A DNA stretch of 64,000 bases from Tetrahymena thermophila SB210 (taxonomy: Eukaryota; Ciliophora; Oligohymenophorea; Hymenostomatida; Tetrahymenidae): contig NW_002476407.1 in the NCBI RefSeq assembly GCF_000189635.1, forward strand, positions 372,001 through 436,000, given 5' to 3'. Position numbers and translations under genes: made by a program. Position 1 is the stretch's first letter. Every line of letters begins with the position of its first letter. The notes under the pieces are model-generated. The model searched no databases and had not been told where the DNA came from. It worked only from the letters and a program-made list of their open reading frames with translations. Below are positions 48,298-54,340 of the stretch, piece by piece.

Positions 48298-51200
48298 TCA
48301 ATTGATATTATCTGGTAGTACTTATTAGAAGTTAGTAGACTGCTCGATCTTTGACTTGTAACTTTGATAAATATCTAAAAGATCGTTTGCATACTTTAGA
48401 AATATAAAATTTTTTAAAAATTCATATAAAAAATTAAGATTTTTACTTTCTATTTTAGTTTTTATTTCAAGAAGAATGTTTATTAATTAGCTTTTCTTTA
48501 GAAGAATTTTACCCACTAAAATATTTTAAAATATAAAATTTTTTTAAATTTAAAACAATTGTAAAAAAATTACTTTCTTTAAGATTAAAGATTTTAAATT
48601 AATAATTTATTTTTCTATCCAATAAGTTTACGTCCTATTAATAATTATTCCATTAATATTACGATTAATTTAAATTAAAATTTTACTATCTATTGATGAA
48701 ATGTATTAAATTTTATCTTTATTTCTAATTAATTTACTAGCTTTTAATTTAAATAATAATAATTTTTTTTATATCTTCTTTGATGTTGAATTTTACCATC
48801 TATTTTTAAAAAAAAATAATATTTAAATTATTTATGAATAGCATAATGTTTGGGGTGTGTTTAATACCTCGATTTCTTTTTTTTGAGTCTCTTTTGATGT
48901 TGAACCTGCAACAAATGCAAAGATGTTTAACTTTTAAATTTATTTTTAGGAATTAACTTTAAAAAAAGTAAAAAGTAAATTAAGTTTTTACTTCCTAATC
49001 ATATGAGTAAATATGAATTTATATTTATTTATGATATAAGCTTAAAAATTACTTCCTATATTTAAAAAATATCTATTTATCTGATTTTTTAACATTTAAT
49101 GTGTTATTACGAACTATTTTGAGAATATTCACTTAAAATTTTTATGAGTTTCAAGCTAATTTACTTTCTATAATTTTATTAGAATTTATTCATAACAGCT
49201 AATTAAAATATATCTTACGTTCTATTTAAATAAATAATTTTTAATCTTTGAAATTATTTTTTATTAAATAAATTTACTGTCTGTAACAATTAAAATCAGT
49301 TAATAAATAAGAGTGTCCTCTCTTTCAAGTAAACTAAATATTGTTACCAACTTTAGAAAAATATTATTTGAGATTTATCAATCATAAATAATTTACATTC
49401 TAAAAAAAATGAATTAGAAATTTTCCTCACTAAACAATTTACGATCTATATTATAATTTGCAAATTAATTTCATCTAAATTTATTTGAACTCATTAATTT
49501 ACGCACTTTTTTAAATAATTAATTTGAATATTTTAAATATTATCTTACTAGACTATAAATTTACTGGCTATTTTAGAAGTATAATAATTTAAAAATAAAA
49601 TTGATGATCTTAATAGTATGTACCCTCTAATTTTATTAAGCTAAGTTTAATAATAATTCATCTTCAAAAATGATTTACATACTTTTTTTATAAAAATTTT
49701 ATTAGAATTTAAATAAATTGATTAGTCTTACATTCTGTTAAATATCCATAAAATGATAAAATTAGCATCGAAACCATTAATGAAAACTATTTTACTCTCT
49801 TTAAAAAATATTAAGCAAGGACTATCACTGTTATTAATAAATTACTCCCTATTTTTATTAAAAAAGTATTTTTAAATAAAAACTTAGCAATAAGGAATTT
49901 ACATTCTTTTTATTTGTTAAAATAGTATAAAAATATCTGTCTCATATACAATTAATCTTCAATTTTACTTGCTAATTTTATTAATGTTATAAGTTTTTAT
50001 TGGTCATAGATAGCAATTAAATTTACGAACTTATTTTTTTTAAAAAAAGTATTAAAAAACATTTATTTTTTTTGTTATTAATAATATTACTGCCTTTTTA
50101 TATCAAAACAAATAAATTAAATTTATCATATTTTAAGATCTCTTATCTTACGTTCTAGTAATTTTTTAAGAAAATTTAGTTTTTAATCACTCATAGCTAA
50201 CAACAAATTATTTTACCATCTATATTTAATTTTAATAAGTTTATTATTTAATGCTTTAATTGCTATAAATTAAAATTTACATGCTAATTAAAAGATAAAA
50301 TATTAATATTTTATGTTTTTTGCAGTATTTTTGTCTCCTTACTTTCTGTTTATAATATGATAAATATCAAATTTATTAAAAATACTAAAATAATTTACAA
50401 TCTATTTTTGTTAAAACATGATTTTTACTTAATGATTTAATAATAATCAAAGCTTACTTCCTATTATTTAATAAAATACATAAAAATTTATATTTCACTT
50501 TAAAATATAATTTATTACAATGTCTTCCTAAAATTTCGTTTATTTAAACGATATAAATTAGTATTAACTCAGTTTAAAGTTTCTCCTAAATGAAATTTAC
50601 ATATTTTTCCCACTATTTACATTTTTAAAAATTCATTATTTTAGTATTCTAAATATATATAAAATTAAATACTCTCCATGATACATTCAGAAGCTCTAAC
50701 ATTTAATTGCACTTATCTAAACATACCTTCTGAATTAACCTCTTCTCTAGAATTGGATTGACTACATCACGGAAATTCTAAAGCTATTTTTTTATATCAA
50801 TTTTGAATTTTCATATTTCAAATGAGTGTGTATTGTATTGTATGTATATGTTAATATTTACTAGGTTTTTAAAAGATTTCTCACATTAATTAATTGTTTT
50901 AAGACATTGTTAACTGTATCCCTCTCTTCTCTTCTTTTCAGTTTCGTTGTAAATCTTCTCAAAATTCCACTCAATATATACATCTGTTTCATTAGAATTA
51001 TAAACAATTTTATCTTTAATTTATTAAAGTTATTCATTAATAATGGCTTAGCTAGATGACATTTATGCATTGTTTATAAGTCTTATCATATCTTCATACT
51101 CTTTCATTCTTCTCTTGTAACCATTCAAGGTATCATCTAAGATAAACTTCACCTATTTGTGCATATAATCATTTATAATAATATTTCCTTTTAAATATTT

Positions 51201-51625
51201 ATAACCTGCTGTATCTTGTTTAAAAGCTTATTTAAAGCTTTTTGAGACTCTAAAAGCAGGTCTACGAATCCAATATCTTAATCTGTCACTTGCTTATTCA
51301 TATACCTTTATCTTGTGTGGTCTTCAATCATTTATAAAACTAAATCAAGATCATCTTCTACTTTTAATTCATGCCTTTAGTGTTCATTTCTATGGCAATA
51401 AGGGCATATTAACTTAAAGTAATTTTCTCCGCAATCATGATTAAGGCATCTTAAAATGAATTAATGAATATTTAGAATTAATAATTTTATTAATTACACT
51501 AAACTCATATCTTTTGAAAGAGGACACTTAACACATCTAGGGTAATGTCTAAATGGTGACCTCATATTCCTAATAGCGTTTTCTATTTTTTCTTTAATTG
51601 GCTCTACTAATGAACTCCCCTACAT
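48298..51625 (-). CDS. B-box coiled-coil protein whose C-terminal half is encoded by single-codon microexons
   Basis: Ordinary exons (minus): 51498-51625, 51206-51449, 50862-51152, 50673-50783. Then 50601-50612 (12 nt) and 50519-50527 (9 nt); 26 exons of 3 nt between 50460 and 48992; 48868-48930 (63 nt); seven exons of 3 nt between 48799 and 48447; and a terminal exon 48298-48393 ending TGA. Total 40 exons and 350 residues. Zinc-binding residues fit a B-box: C31-x2-C34, C44, C49, C58-x2-C61, H66, H69. A coiled coil follows (GYKRRMKEYEDMIRLINNAQ), the TRIM-like order without a RING. The microexon part joins into an ordinary-looking sequence and leads in frame to KYANDLLDIYQSYKSK. Exon 4 onward is entirely phase 0. 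The first four exons are secure; the microexon part is inference from splice signals. Confidence 0.75.
48447..50527 (-). other. Array of 33 three-nucleotide exons (single codons) separated by 43-68-nt introns
   Basis: Lowest coordinate of each triplet, in transcript order: 50458, 50399, 50343, 50281, 50217, 50152, 50091, 50027, 49969, 49903, 49846, 49796, 49732, 49679, 49624, 49565, 49503, 49443, 49397, 49348, 49278, 49219, 49165, 49111, 49053, 48992; then, after the 63-nt exon, 48797, 48738, 48687, 48632, 48574, 48513, 48447. On the plus strand each reads AC-NNN-CT, that is AG|NNN|GT on the coding strand, nearly always TAG or AAG before and GTAA after. No triplet is TAA, TAG or TGA. By my count 30 of the 99 exon bases are G or C, clearly above the flanking introns. 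The 9-nt exon 50519-50527 begins the run. Confidence 0.75.
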
Positions 51626-52221: not shown

Positions 52222-53589
52222 TCAAATCTAAAATATTCTTATTTCTGGCTGAATATCTATAGTTTTATACATATTTTTTAAATCCTATCTGAGTCTTTCT
52301 TTAAATCCTTTCAGATTGAAATAATTACCTATGCAAATTACATTACTTAATATTTGTTCTATTTCTTCATAAGAAAATTTTCTTAATGTAGATCTTATAA
52401 TGTCTTAAAGACTTGGCAAGTAGCTATTTTTGCCTGTTGGGCTGAAGATAGATTCAGGGCAATCTATTTATTCATGACCTAAATACACTGTTAGCATTAA
52501 ATCATTAAAGCTTCTTCCATTATCTCTCAACTACTCTAAAGGTTTTTTATATACAGTCCAATGAATGTAGCTTTATATAAAATCTGCTTTTTCTGATTTG
52601 TAGTTTTATGCAAAGTAGCAATGTTTTAAAACAATCTCTTTACACATTTCATTTATCTCTTGATCAATAAAATTTGCAATTTAAAATTAATATAGAACAA
52701 GCTCCTTCATAATATCAACTAAAAAATTTGTGTCCATTGGATGTTTATAGCAATCACTTTCTTTAACCACAAATTCAAAAGAAGGTATTACAGATACTAC
52801 CCCAAAATTTTCAACTAGTATCAGACCTGTTCCATTATTTTATAAAACATTACTCAAATAGTTTTAGTTTGTATATTCTTTCATGATTATAGGGCTTATT
52901 CCTTAATACTTTGAATATTAATGATAATCTTCATTTAAAACTGAGAGCTATATGAGAGGCTAGAAAAAGTGAAAAAGATGAGAGTCTCTTCTATTCATTA
53001 AACTTGTCAATTTTTTACTTTCCCTTTTTATTTACGTGCTATTTATTAATTTTTACAATTCTGATACTTCATTATAAAATTATTATTTTTTAATTTAGTA
53101 TTTCGTTGAACCAAGTTAAAAGCCATTTTCTTCTTTAATTTCCTTATCAGATTTTTATTTCTTATTTTTGCTAAACAAATCAACTAAGCTTTTTGAAGTA
53201 TTTTTCTTAATAGATTAATGAGTTATTTAACTTTTTTATTCCTACGGAATCAGAGGCATGGAACTTGCAGATTAATTAATACACTCTAAAGTATCTTTAG
53301 TACTTATCAAAGACCTTAGTTTGTTGTTTGAGTGTAAAAAGTGTTCAGAATTATTATTTATTAATGGGCTGATTTAAGTATCGCTAGCAAATTTGACATG
53401 ATTATTTATTAATGTTGAGGATTTTCGTTGTTTATTTATTAGTTTTCCAAAGGATTAATTTCCAGCATCTGTTTCTATGCTCTTAATCGATACACATTTA
53501 ACACTTTCTTGAGATTTTATAGAAGGCAAAGCATTATTGTCTTTAATATAAGGGGAACTTTTATTTCTTTTTGACAAAAAATTCTTCAT
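52222..53589 (-). CDS. Divergent actin-related protein
   Basis: An intronless frame of 455 residues, TGA at 52222-52224. The second half aligns by eye with actin subdomains: GLILVENFGVVSVIPSFEF (actin GIVLDSGDGVTHTVPIYEG), FLVDIMKELVLYQ, then EINEMCKEIVLKHCYFAQNY (actin EREIVRDIKEKLCYVALDF), and SIFSPTGKNSYLPSLQDIIR with LSNVICIGNYFNLKGFKERL (actin LFQPSFIG..., TVMSGGTTMYPGIADRM). Nucleotide-contacting DSGDG and SGGT are not conserved (ENFGV, CIGNYF), so ATP binding is doubtful. The first ~170 residues are a Ser/Lys/Asn-rich extension with no actin similarity, in place of the usual first phosphate loop. Such divergent ARPs are often nuclear or basal-body components. Lack of introns is notable beside its neighbours. 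Confidence 0.65.
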
Positions 53590-54340
53590 TTAATTAATTT
53601 CTATTGCTTAATTTATTAATTTGTAAAATTCTATTATCTTTACAGTAAAACTTGAATCTTTTATCATGCATAGAAAAGACTTATAAATTTAACTATATTT
53701 TATCAATAATTATTACAAAATTACTATCTTTGCTTATTCAGCGTTTACAAAATATGATACCATTAGCAGTTTACTGCCTATAGATATAATATACGATAGA
53801 AACGTAAATAATTCTAGAGTTAAATCAATTAAACTATCTAAAATTTAACAGTAAAATATACTATCAATTACCATATTTTAGCATTAAATTTAGCAAATTT
53901 GAAGGTTTCTTAAACATATAATTTGAATAATTATTCATTAGATTTTTCTATTTTAAGTTTTTACACAAAAATAGATTTCTAATAAGATCCATTAAAATAA
54001 TTTCTAAATATAAATTTTTGTCTGAAAAAAAAAGATATATTTTAGTAAAAATATTTTTAATGATATATTTTATTGGAGATATTTGAAAGAAAATTATACT
54101 AACAATAATTCTACTAAAAATTATGATTTTATTTATTAATTTCAATAAGCATTTAATAATAATTATATTTATAGCAATCTAATAGACCCTTTAATAATAA
54201 TTAAGGAATGGATTAAATAGAAATTTTTTATTTTATTTTTTAATCTTCATAGATTATTTAAAGATACACTTTTTGATCTAACTAAATTAATACATTTAAG
54301 CCAAATATACTTAAAAGGAGAATAAATATAAATTCACAAT
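53590..54340. other. Divergent intergenic region
   Basis: 751 bp between the actin-related gene and the helicase gene, presumed to carry both promoters. The AT-rich hydrophobic ORF at 53948-54145 is compositional. Confidence 0.6.

Follow-up and report, generated by a model that had tools for sequence, protein, structure and literature searches.

Can a gene be assembled from dozens of exons that consist of one codon each? The question is raised by a locus of Tetrahymena thermophila SB210, within a stretch of 64,000 nucleotides (the window), where 33 triplets, each between AG and GTA, occur over 2.3 kb of the minus strand. A script scan arranged them in two runs, of 26 and of 7 (table 1). The first-pass annotation had reported 33 triplets flanked by AG and GT, and all of them were recovered at the place and on the strand claimed, 32 with the donor GTAA. 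When the minus strand from 50680 to 48401 was scanned for AG-N{k}-GTA, 33 matches were obtained for k = 3, whereas each of the other 30 values of k (0 to 30) gave between 0 and 3; for AG-N{k}-GTAA, the count at k = 3 was 32. The opposite strand gave 1 match at k = 3, and 1000 dinucleotide shuffles of the array gave a mean of 1.6 and a maximum of 7 triplets, versus 33 in the real sequence.

The exons of 12, 9, 63, and 96 nt that had been proposed around the triplets, with lengths divisible by three, phase-0 junctions, and a final TGA, fit a joined model of 40 exons and 39 introns. All introns of this model are GT-AG and 43 to 78 nt long, every exon is a multiple of three, and the predicted product has 366 residues, with the terminal TGA as the sole stop in genetic code 6. 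The three upstream exons are our own placement, predicted from the sequence, and the first of them encodes a Cys/His cluster (CX2C...CX4C...CX2C...H). In the model, 36 of the 40 exons are shorter than 70 nt, and 36 micro-exons follow each other in a row (12 nt, 9 nt, 26 × 3 nt, 63 nt, and 7 × 3 nt). The 31 introns between neighbouring triplets had a mean length of 55.6 nt and 16% G+C; their donors were GTAA (30) and GTAC (1), and their acceptors TAG (19), AAG (9), and CAG (3). Aligned in pairs, the window introns scored somewhat better than shuffles (means 11.6 vs. 7.8).

Table 1. Predicted exons of the window gene, in the order of transcription (positions in the window)
Feature	Position	Strand	Basis
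Exon 1, 420 nt, ATG start	51206..51625	-	Open frame in code 6, joined model; predicted
Exon 2, 291 nt, coiled-coil-like by eye	50862..51152	-	Phase-0 frame, GT-AG intron 51205-51153
Exon 3, 111 nt, LQNFRDVV...LLNVSWR	50673..50783	-	Joined model
12-nt exon, WEKY	50601..50612	-	AG...GTAA, phase 0
9-nt exon, EDI	50519..50527	-	AG...GTAA, phase 0
Array 1, 26 consecutive 3-nt exons, EIKHMNAFQNGRNYRPCINLTNKFEE, 25 introns of 43-67 nt	48992..50460	-	Scan and joined model
63-nt exon, LNIFAFVAGSTSKETQKKEIE	48868..48930	-	Joined model
Array 2, 7 consecutive 3-nt exons, MLIDKWK, 6 introns of 48-63 nt	48447..48799	-	Scan and joined model
Last exon, 96 nt, YANDLLDIYQSYKSKIEQSTNFQQVLPDNIN, stop TGA	48298..48393	-	Joined model

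As had been claimed, no triplet is a stop: TGA, TAA, and TAG were found in 0 of 33. Their higher G+C (30% vs. 16% in the introns) was also confirmed, but in codon content they did not surpass 94 AGNNNGTA triplets from the rest of the window (P = 0.74). Codon use was then scored with a reference of 5276 codons, drawn from six long open frames in the window. The part of the product that starts at the 12-nt exon scored -5.52 bits per codon in phase 0, with 0 TGA, and -5.84 and -5.95 at the other offsets, with 2 TGA each. For the run of 7 triplets alone the best-scoring frame was not phase 0, and in the run of 26 triplets offset 2 was also free of TGA. The frame of the window gene is supported mainly by its phase-0 flanking exons.

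The upstream part had been described as a B-box coiled-coil protein. Exon 2 does look like a coiled coil by eye; the B-box was not borne out, with no Pfam match above cut-off. The whole product had no match above cut-off in Pfam, NCBIfam, or PDB, and no leucine-rich repeat (LRR) match in Pfam; the array peptides tried had no Pfam match above cut-off either. A search for paralogues of the window gene gave weak matches to exons 1 and 2 (27-29% identity) at C135, C278, and C138:231k, and one of these (L063, 3.5 kb) had no excess at k = 3. When the window array was used as a DNA query, the array itself was returned, along with 10 short matches at 74-90% identity. Seven of the 10 (L002-L008), together with L009 from a loose-pattern search, contained no run of 4 or more 3-nt exons.

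The architecture was then sought by pattern in the 101-Mb assembly (445 contigs), with the reversed pattern as control. The strict pattern was GTAA-N{40,68}-TAG-NNN-GTAA-N{40,68}-TAG-NNN-GTAA, and exon lengths of 3, 4, and 6 nt were compared. Exons of 3 nt gave 676 matches versus 24 in the control, many of the 676 stemming from one repeated unit, while 4-nt exons gave 6 versus 35 and 6-nt exons 8 versus 181. With GTAAA as the middle donor, 106 matches to the 3-nt pattern were obtained (control, 14), and with two GTAAA 38 (control, 10). A loose pattern gave 1316 versus 248, part of which is accounted for by satellites on C11 and C12; because these match the loose pattern, TAG was required in the strict one. 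The satellites themselves (C11, 17-49 kb; C12, 0-20 kb) have units of about 365 and 450 bp with AGTAAGTAAG and contain no exon arrays. Chance and base composition as the source of the arrays were ruled out by the spectrum of k, the shuffles, and the reversed-pattern controls.

By our reading of the matches listed, at least 31 contigs carry either the repeated intron unit or a minimum of two matches outside satellites. Among the loci fetched as array candidates, 18 have at least one chain of five or more 3-nt exons (34 chains). On C209 and C426, short runs of 3-nt exons are mixed with exons of 6 to 12 nt, and C4 has an upstream open frame that is of the Cys/His and coiled-coil type by eye. On C26, a protein kinase domain lies upstream of the array (Pfam E = 3.2e-11, for a stretch translated by eye); C26 is the copy of this family in which the domain was sought, the other loci being linked by the common array or intron unit. 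No contiguous copy of the kinase-array peptide was found in the genome, although an empty result of such a search is uninformative. The piece C26:20001-30000 (L048) has no run of 4 or more 3-nt exons. C262 (L049, C262:212000-216200) has a phase-0 chain of 38 3-nt exons, two 12-nt exons, and a 9-nt exon. By eye, the sequence ahead of this chain is similar to that which follows the kinase domain of C26, although the two arrays differ in phase. Judged from these patterns, the same architecture recurs in many genes of this genome and the window gene is no freak. The first-pass annotation had treated it as a gene without a described counterpart, but it belongs to a class, and among known kinds the micro-exon genes of flatworms come close. 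Such arrays are probably undercounted, because they would be hard to annotate and to map reads to and several lie at contig ends. They were seen at or near the end of C7 and the starts of C9, C20, C26, and C29, so the assembly may break there, and the arrays may extend further than is visible.

A triplet can itself make a splice site: GTN would make a donor and NAG an acceptor, and TAA would blur the junction. Among 531 triplets, we found 2 GTN (32.8 expected), 13 NAG (34.2), and 1 TAA (18.6), the expected counts being derived from the composition of the triplets themselves. TGA was not depleted overall (15 vs. 12.4 expected). Compared with AGNNNGTA triplets elsewhere in the window by Fisher tests, the differences were significant for GTN (P = 0.006), NAG (P = 0.002), and TAA (P = 2e-7). 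With one locus per family (226 triplets), the counts were GTN 0 (13.9 expected), NAG 8 (16.1), and TAA 1 (10.8), and for six diverged loci (125 triplets) GTN 0 (6.6), NAG 5 (10.1, P = 0.06), and TAA 1 (6.6). In the diverged arrays alone the avoidance of NAG is weak.

The reading frame was investigated further in 10 loci of the C26/C9 type. TGA occurred in 17 of 421 codons at offset 0, 0 of 398 at offset 1, and 11 of 398 at offset 2. The count at offset 1 was obtained after a terminal AAA had been removed from two segments; with it the count is 2 of 400, both of them the stop at the array end. When the order of the triplets was shuffled, offset 1 had 8.9 TGA on average, and 0 was never reached in 5000 shuffles. 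Offset 2 was also lower than its shuffles (11 vs. 22.3), perhaps owing to a triplet order common to related loci. Moreover, the variable zone of these arrays ends alike, ...YELF, in C26b, C440, C378, and C232. In C440, C378, and C232 a TGA follows, to which the next exon contributes its A; for C26b the retrieved piece does not include that exon, and in C378 the automatic chain took another exon.

An open offset 1 means phase-2 introns, with every codon split. The distribution of TGA implies such introns in the C26/C9-type arrays, but codon composition does not confirm them. With TGA set aside, codon use picked no frame (-5.96, -5.96, and -6.01). The G+C content by triplet position (0.54, 0.38, and 0.21) resembled phase 0, and G+C at the third codon position at offset 1 was 0.52, versus 0.23 in window genes. 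This G+C pattern may reflect the splice-site context and not the frame, because C262 has a similar one (0.41, 0.37, and 0.20) and is open in phase 0 only. There the codon score was -5.49 in phase 0, with 0 TGA, and -5.85 and -6.14 in the other frames, with 1 and 2 TGA.

Considering all this, the arrays are very probably genuine spliced one-codon exons, an extreme type of micro-exon gene. The codon composition of the C26/C9-type arrays led us to lower our confidence in this slightly, and the confidence concerns the splicing of one-codon exons, not the origin of the variable zone. That the triplets are real single-codon exons had been the first-pass reading, and it is supported by their recurrence across the genome, the restriction to 3 nt, the TGA-free frame and shared stop of the related family, the avoidance of splice-site triplets, and the hypervariable triplets described below. 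The anatomy, the restriction to 3 nt, the open frame, the rarity of triplets that would create splice sites, the independence of codon and intron variation, and one block transfer are all read from genomic sequence.

The triplets could instead be absent from the mRNA, either as ratchet points in the stepwise (recursive) excision of a single long composite intron or through skipping. 3-nt exons are difficult to define, the frame is preserved whichever of them is skipped, and the offset-1 frame is unconfirmed by codon composition. In a C205 paralogue, moreover, a zero-length exon AG|GT stands in place of a triplet (L052, ~2811-2816; its paralogues have GGA, GAA, or GAC there), which we read as the loss of a codon whose two splice sites remain. 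Ratcheting, however, would favour bare AG|GT, and k = 0 is not enriched, with 1 match in the window array. Discarded triplets would be indifferent to frame, yet TGA is absent from one frame of the C26/C9-type loci, and the variable zone closes on a common stop. Loss of the triplets from the transcript is an improbable account, and splicing would include all 3-nt exons.

The paralogues also bear on whether the arrays are functional. Array peptides of four loci can be aligned (IG.IK..DW...MIFYE......IG), with identical residues at 131 of 222 codons in the six pairs. In these 222 comparisons, which are not independent, nonsynonymous differences outnumbered synonymous ones by 91 to 7, and differences were about evenly spread over the codon positions (57/44/52). 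The nonsynonymous excess fits either diversifying selection or weak protein constraint. Read by eye in one alignment of four loci, exon lengths changed from 9 to 12, 9 to 6, 6 to 3, and 3 to 0 nt. In C26b, also by eye, the donor of one exon has been lost, as have sites around the next exon. C26 and C195 contain a possible 2-nt exon, AAG|AT|GTA (L043, minus strand, ~4740; L053, ~645), which is a possible counter-example to the multiple-of-three rule or a skipped exon. C205 has a 3-nt GAT at this place. Decaying pseudogene arrays would account for the nonsynonymous excess, the splice sites lost in C26b, and the possible 2-nt exon. They would hardly keep an open frame without internal TGA or change exon lengths by multiples of 3, as in that alignment, and the window gene is intact over 366 codons. 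We consider such decay very improbable.

In one zone of the C26/C9-type arrays the codons are hypervariable and the introns are nearly constant. Among 17 C9 units, the pairwise identity of the triplet columns was 0.27, 0.24, and 0.56, whereas the T that precedes AG and the AT that follows GTA did not vary; AG and GTA themselves are constant by selection of the units. In 106 units from ten loci, selected with a filter on an intron motif, so that portions of the intron ends were fixed beforehand, heterozygosity was 0.74, 0.73, and 0.64 at the triplet positions, versus a mean of 0.06 in the intron. Units of 72-76 bp are near-identical in several loci. In 532 unit pairs without intron substitution, 2.13 of the 3 triplet positions differed and 9% of the triplets were identical; in 237 pairs with ten or more intron substitutions, 2.0 of 3 differed. 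Inside loci, no link between triplet identity and intron similarity was found (permutation P = 0.18). One identical 69-nt intron, with 24 occurrences, had 11 different triplets on its upstream side and 9 on its downstream side, some of these units being copies of each other.

Near-identical units at several loci would also be produced by a satellite, that is, a noncoding tandem repeat with AGNNNGTAA by accident. Unrelated satellites with AGTAAGTAAG do exist on C11 and C12, and the window introns, aligning above shuffles, may share an old origin. Yet variation in otherwise near-identical units is greatest by far in the triplet, one frame lacks TGA, splice-site-making triplets are avoided, and the window array sits inside an open model of 366 codons, so that a satellite is extremely unlikely.

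Another explanation, compatible with real exons, is that a mobile intron invaded every codon boundary of an ordinary exon, leaving old codons between new, identical introns. The triplet difference of about 2.1 of 3 whatever the intron similarity, and the 11 upstream triplets beside the 24 identical introns, agree with it, and exons of 6 and 9 nt resemble codons still unseparated. On the other hand, random insertion would give exons of any length, yet genome-wide there is enrichment of 3-nt exons but not of 4- or 6-nt ones. Among the roughly 150 of 564 intron-unit matches that were listed, almost every one is on a contig that carries multiple tandem copies in steps of 72 or 76 bp. For comparison, introner elements are near-identical introns scattered over many unrelated genes. 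Codons of the variable zone, moreover, do not match between most paralogues. Invasion is possible but doubtful.

Between C26a and C440, 766 bp of the variable zone are identical up to the contig end, codons included; the 798 alignment columns before this part have 24 mismatches and 24 gap columns. This identity marks a recent block transfer of the variable zone, which also differs in unit number among arrays. Since the identical block includes the codons, blocks travel with their codons in the short term, while in the long term the histories of codons and introns are separate. Three origins of the variable zone can be envisaged: short-tract conversion of introns with selection for codon difference, the spread of introns between existing codons, and the triplet as a mutation target. 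The first is favoured here, short of proof. Intron homology would promote the in-frame exchange of single codons, and selection for variety would keep the codons different. It may tentatively be proposed that near-identical introns provide untranslated homology by which codons are gained, lost, replaced, and moved in frame in kinase-linked genes (or that the triplet is itself a mutation target), giving a hypervariable tail, perhaps for recognition. The window gene could then be an old, quiescent relative with the same architecture.

As for splicing itself, the short introns (~57 nt), nearly all starting with GTAA, would be recognised and removed one by one, and the 33 phase-0 codons would be left joined between the ordinary exons of the window gene. 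Splicing would be expected to proceed sequentially, because a 3-nt exon is too short for its two ends to be recognised at the same time. It is plausible that it works purely by intron definition, as had been suggested. If transcripts confirm the one-codon exons, the arrays represent an extreme for the spliceosome, with dozens of consecutive 3-nt exons and one family in which every codon is interrupted, and they would be a natural system for studying intron definition, the order of splicing, and its fidelity.

Tandem units that are near-identical except for a hypervariable payload are also found in TAL effectors. There the repeat is translated; here all but the payload is intron. Constant introns with random codons invert the usual rule of conserved exons and drifting introns, and the variable zone raises the question of whether introns can act as recombination homology for residue-by-residue protein evolution. 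In their mode of growth, the nearest relative of the 3-nt arrays is found in Tetrahymena itself. The parts of the report used here describe tandem arrays of 90-bp LRR exons with one exon size, more than 98% phase-2 introns, near-identical units, and a recent clonal expansion, and unequal crossing over was proposed (PMC6564038). In those arrays the exon is conserved and forms part of an LRR, whereas in the 3-nt arrays the exon is variable and the intron conserved; nearly all of their introns are phase 2, as against phase 0 in the window gene and in C262.

The micro-exon genes (MEGs) of schistosomes and tapeworms are, in the portions of the literature consulted, described as having consecutive tiny exons in multiples of three and as hard to annotate (PMC7653826; PMC10526429), with exons of 3 to 81 bp and introns of up to 5 kb (PMC10526429). 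For tapeworms they were defined operationally by at least 7 exons, half or more of them shorter than 70 nt and divisible by 3, and a run of at least 4 micro-exons (PMC7653826). The modelled window gene, likewise composed of runs of tiny consecutive exons, is a MEG on all three counts (40 exons; 36 of 40; 36 in a row). The ciliate arrays differ in having exons of exactly 3 nt in long runs and introns of about 57 nt (43-78 nt in the window gene, which lacks the long introns), and one class of them has near-identical introns with hypervariable codons. In flatworm MEGs, exon skipping drops residues without a frameshift (PMC7653826); since almost all exon lengths are divisible by three here, it would do the same. 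Spliced microexons of such lengths, 1 and 3 nt, are reported from plants (PMC8831610) and from Drosophila homothorax (PMC7392893). In the sections of these reports used here they stand singly or two adjacent, without the long uniform arrays of the ciliate. No description of such 3-nt exon arrays was found among the matches listed from the open-access literature searched, a collection that lacks the bulk of subscription papers and every bioRxiv preprint. Genes split in this way would escape ordinary gene finders.

The neighbouring gene upstream (window positions 52222-53934, minus strand) has a weak, sub-threshold Pfam match to actin (E = 3.3e-5), obtained with a query translated by eye from which stretches are missing.
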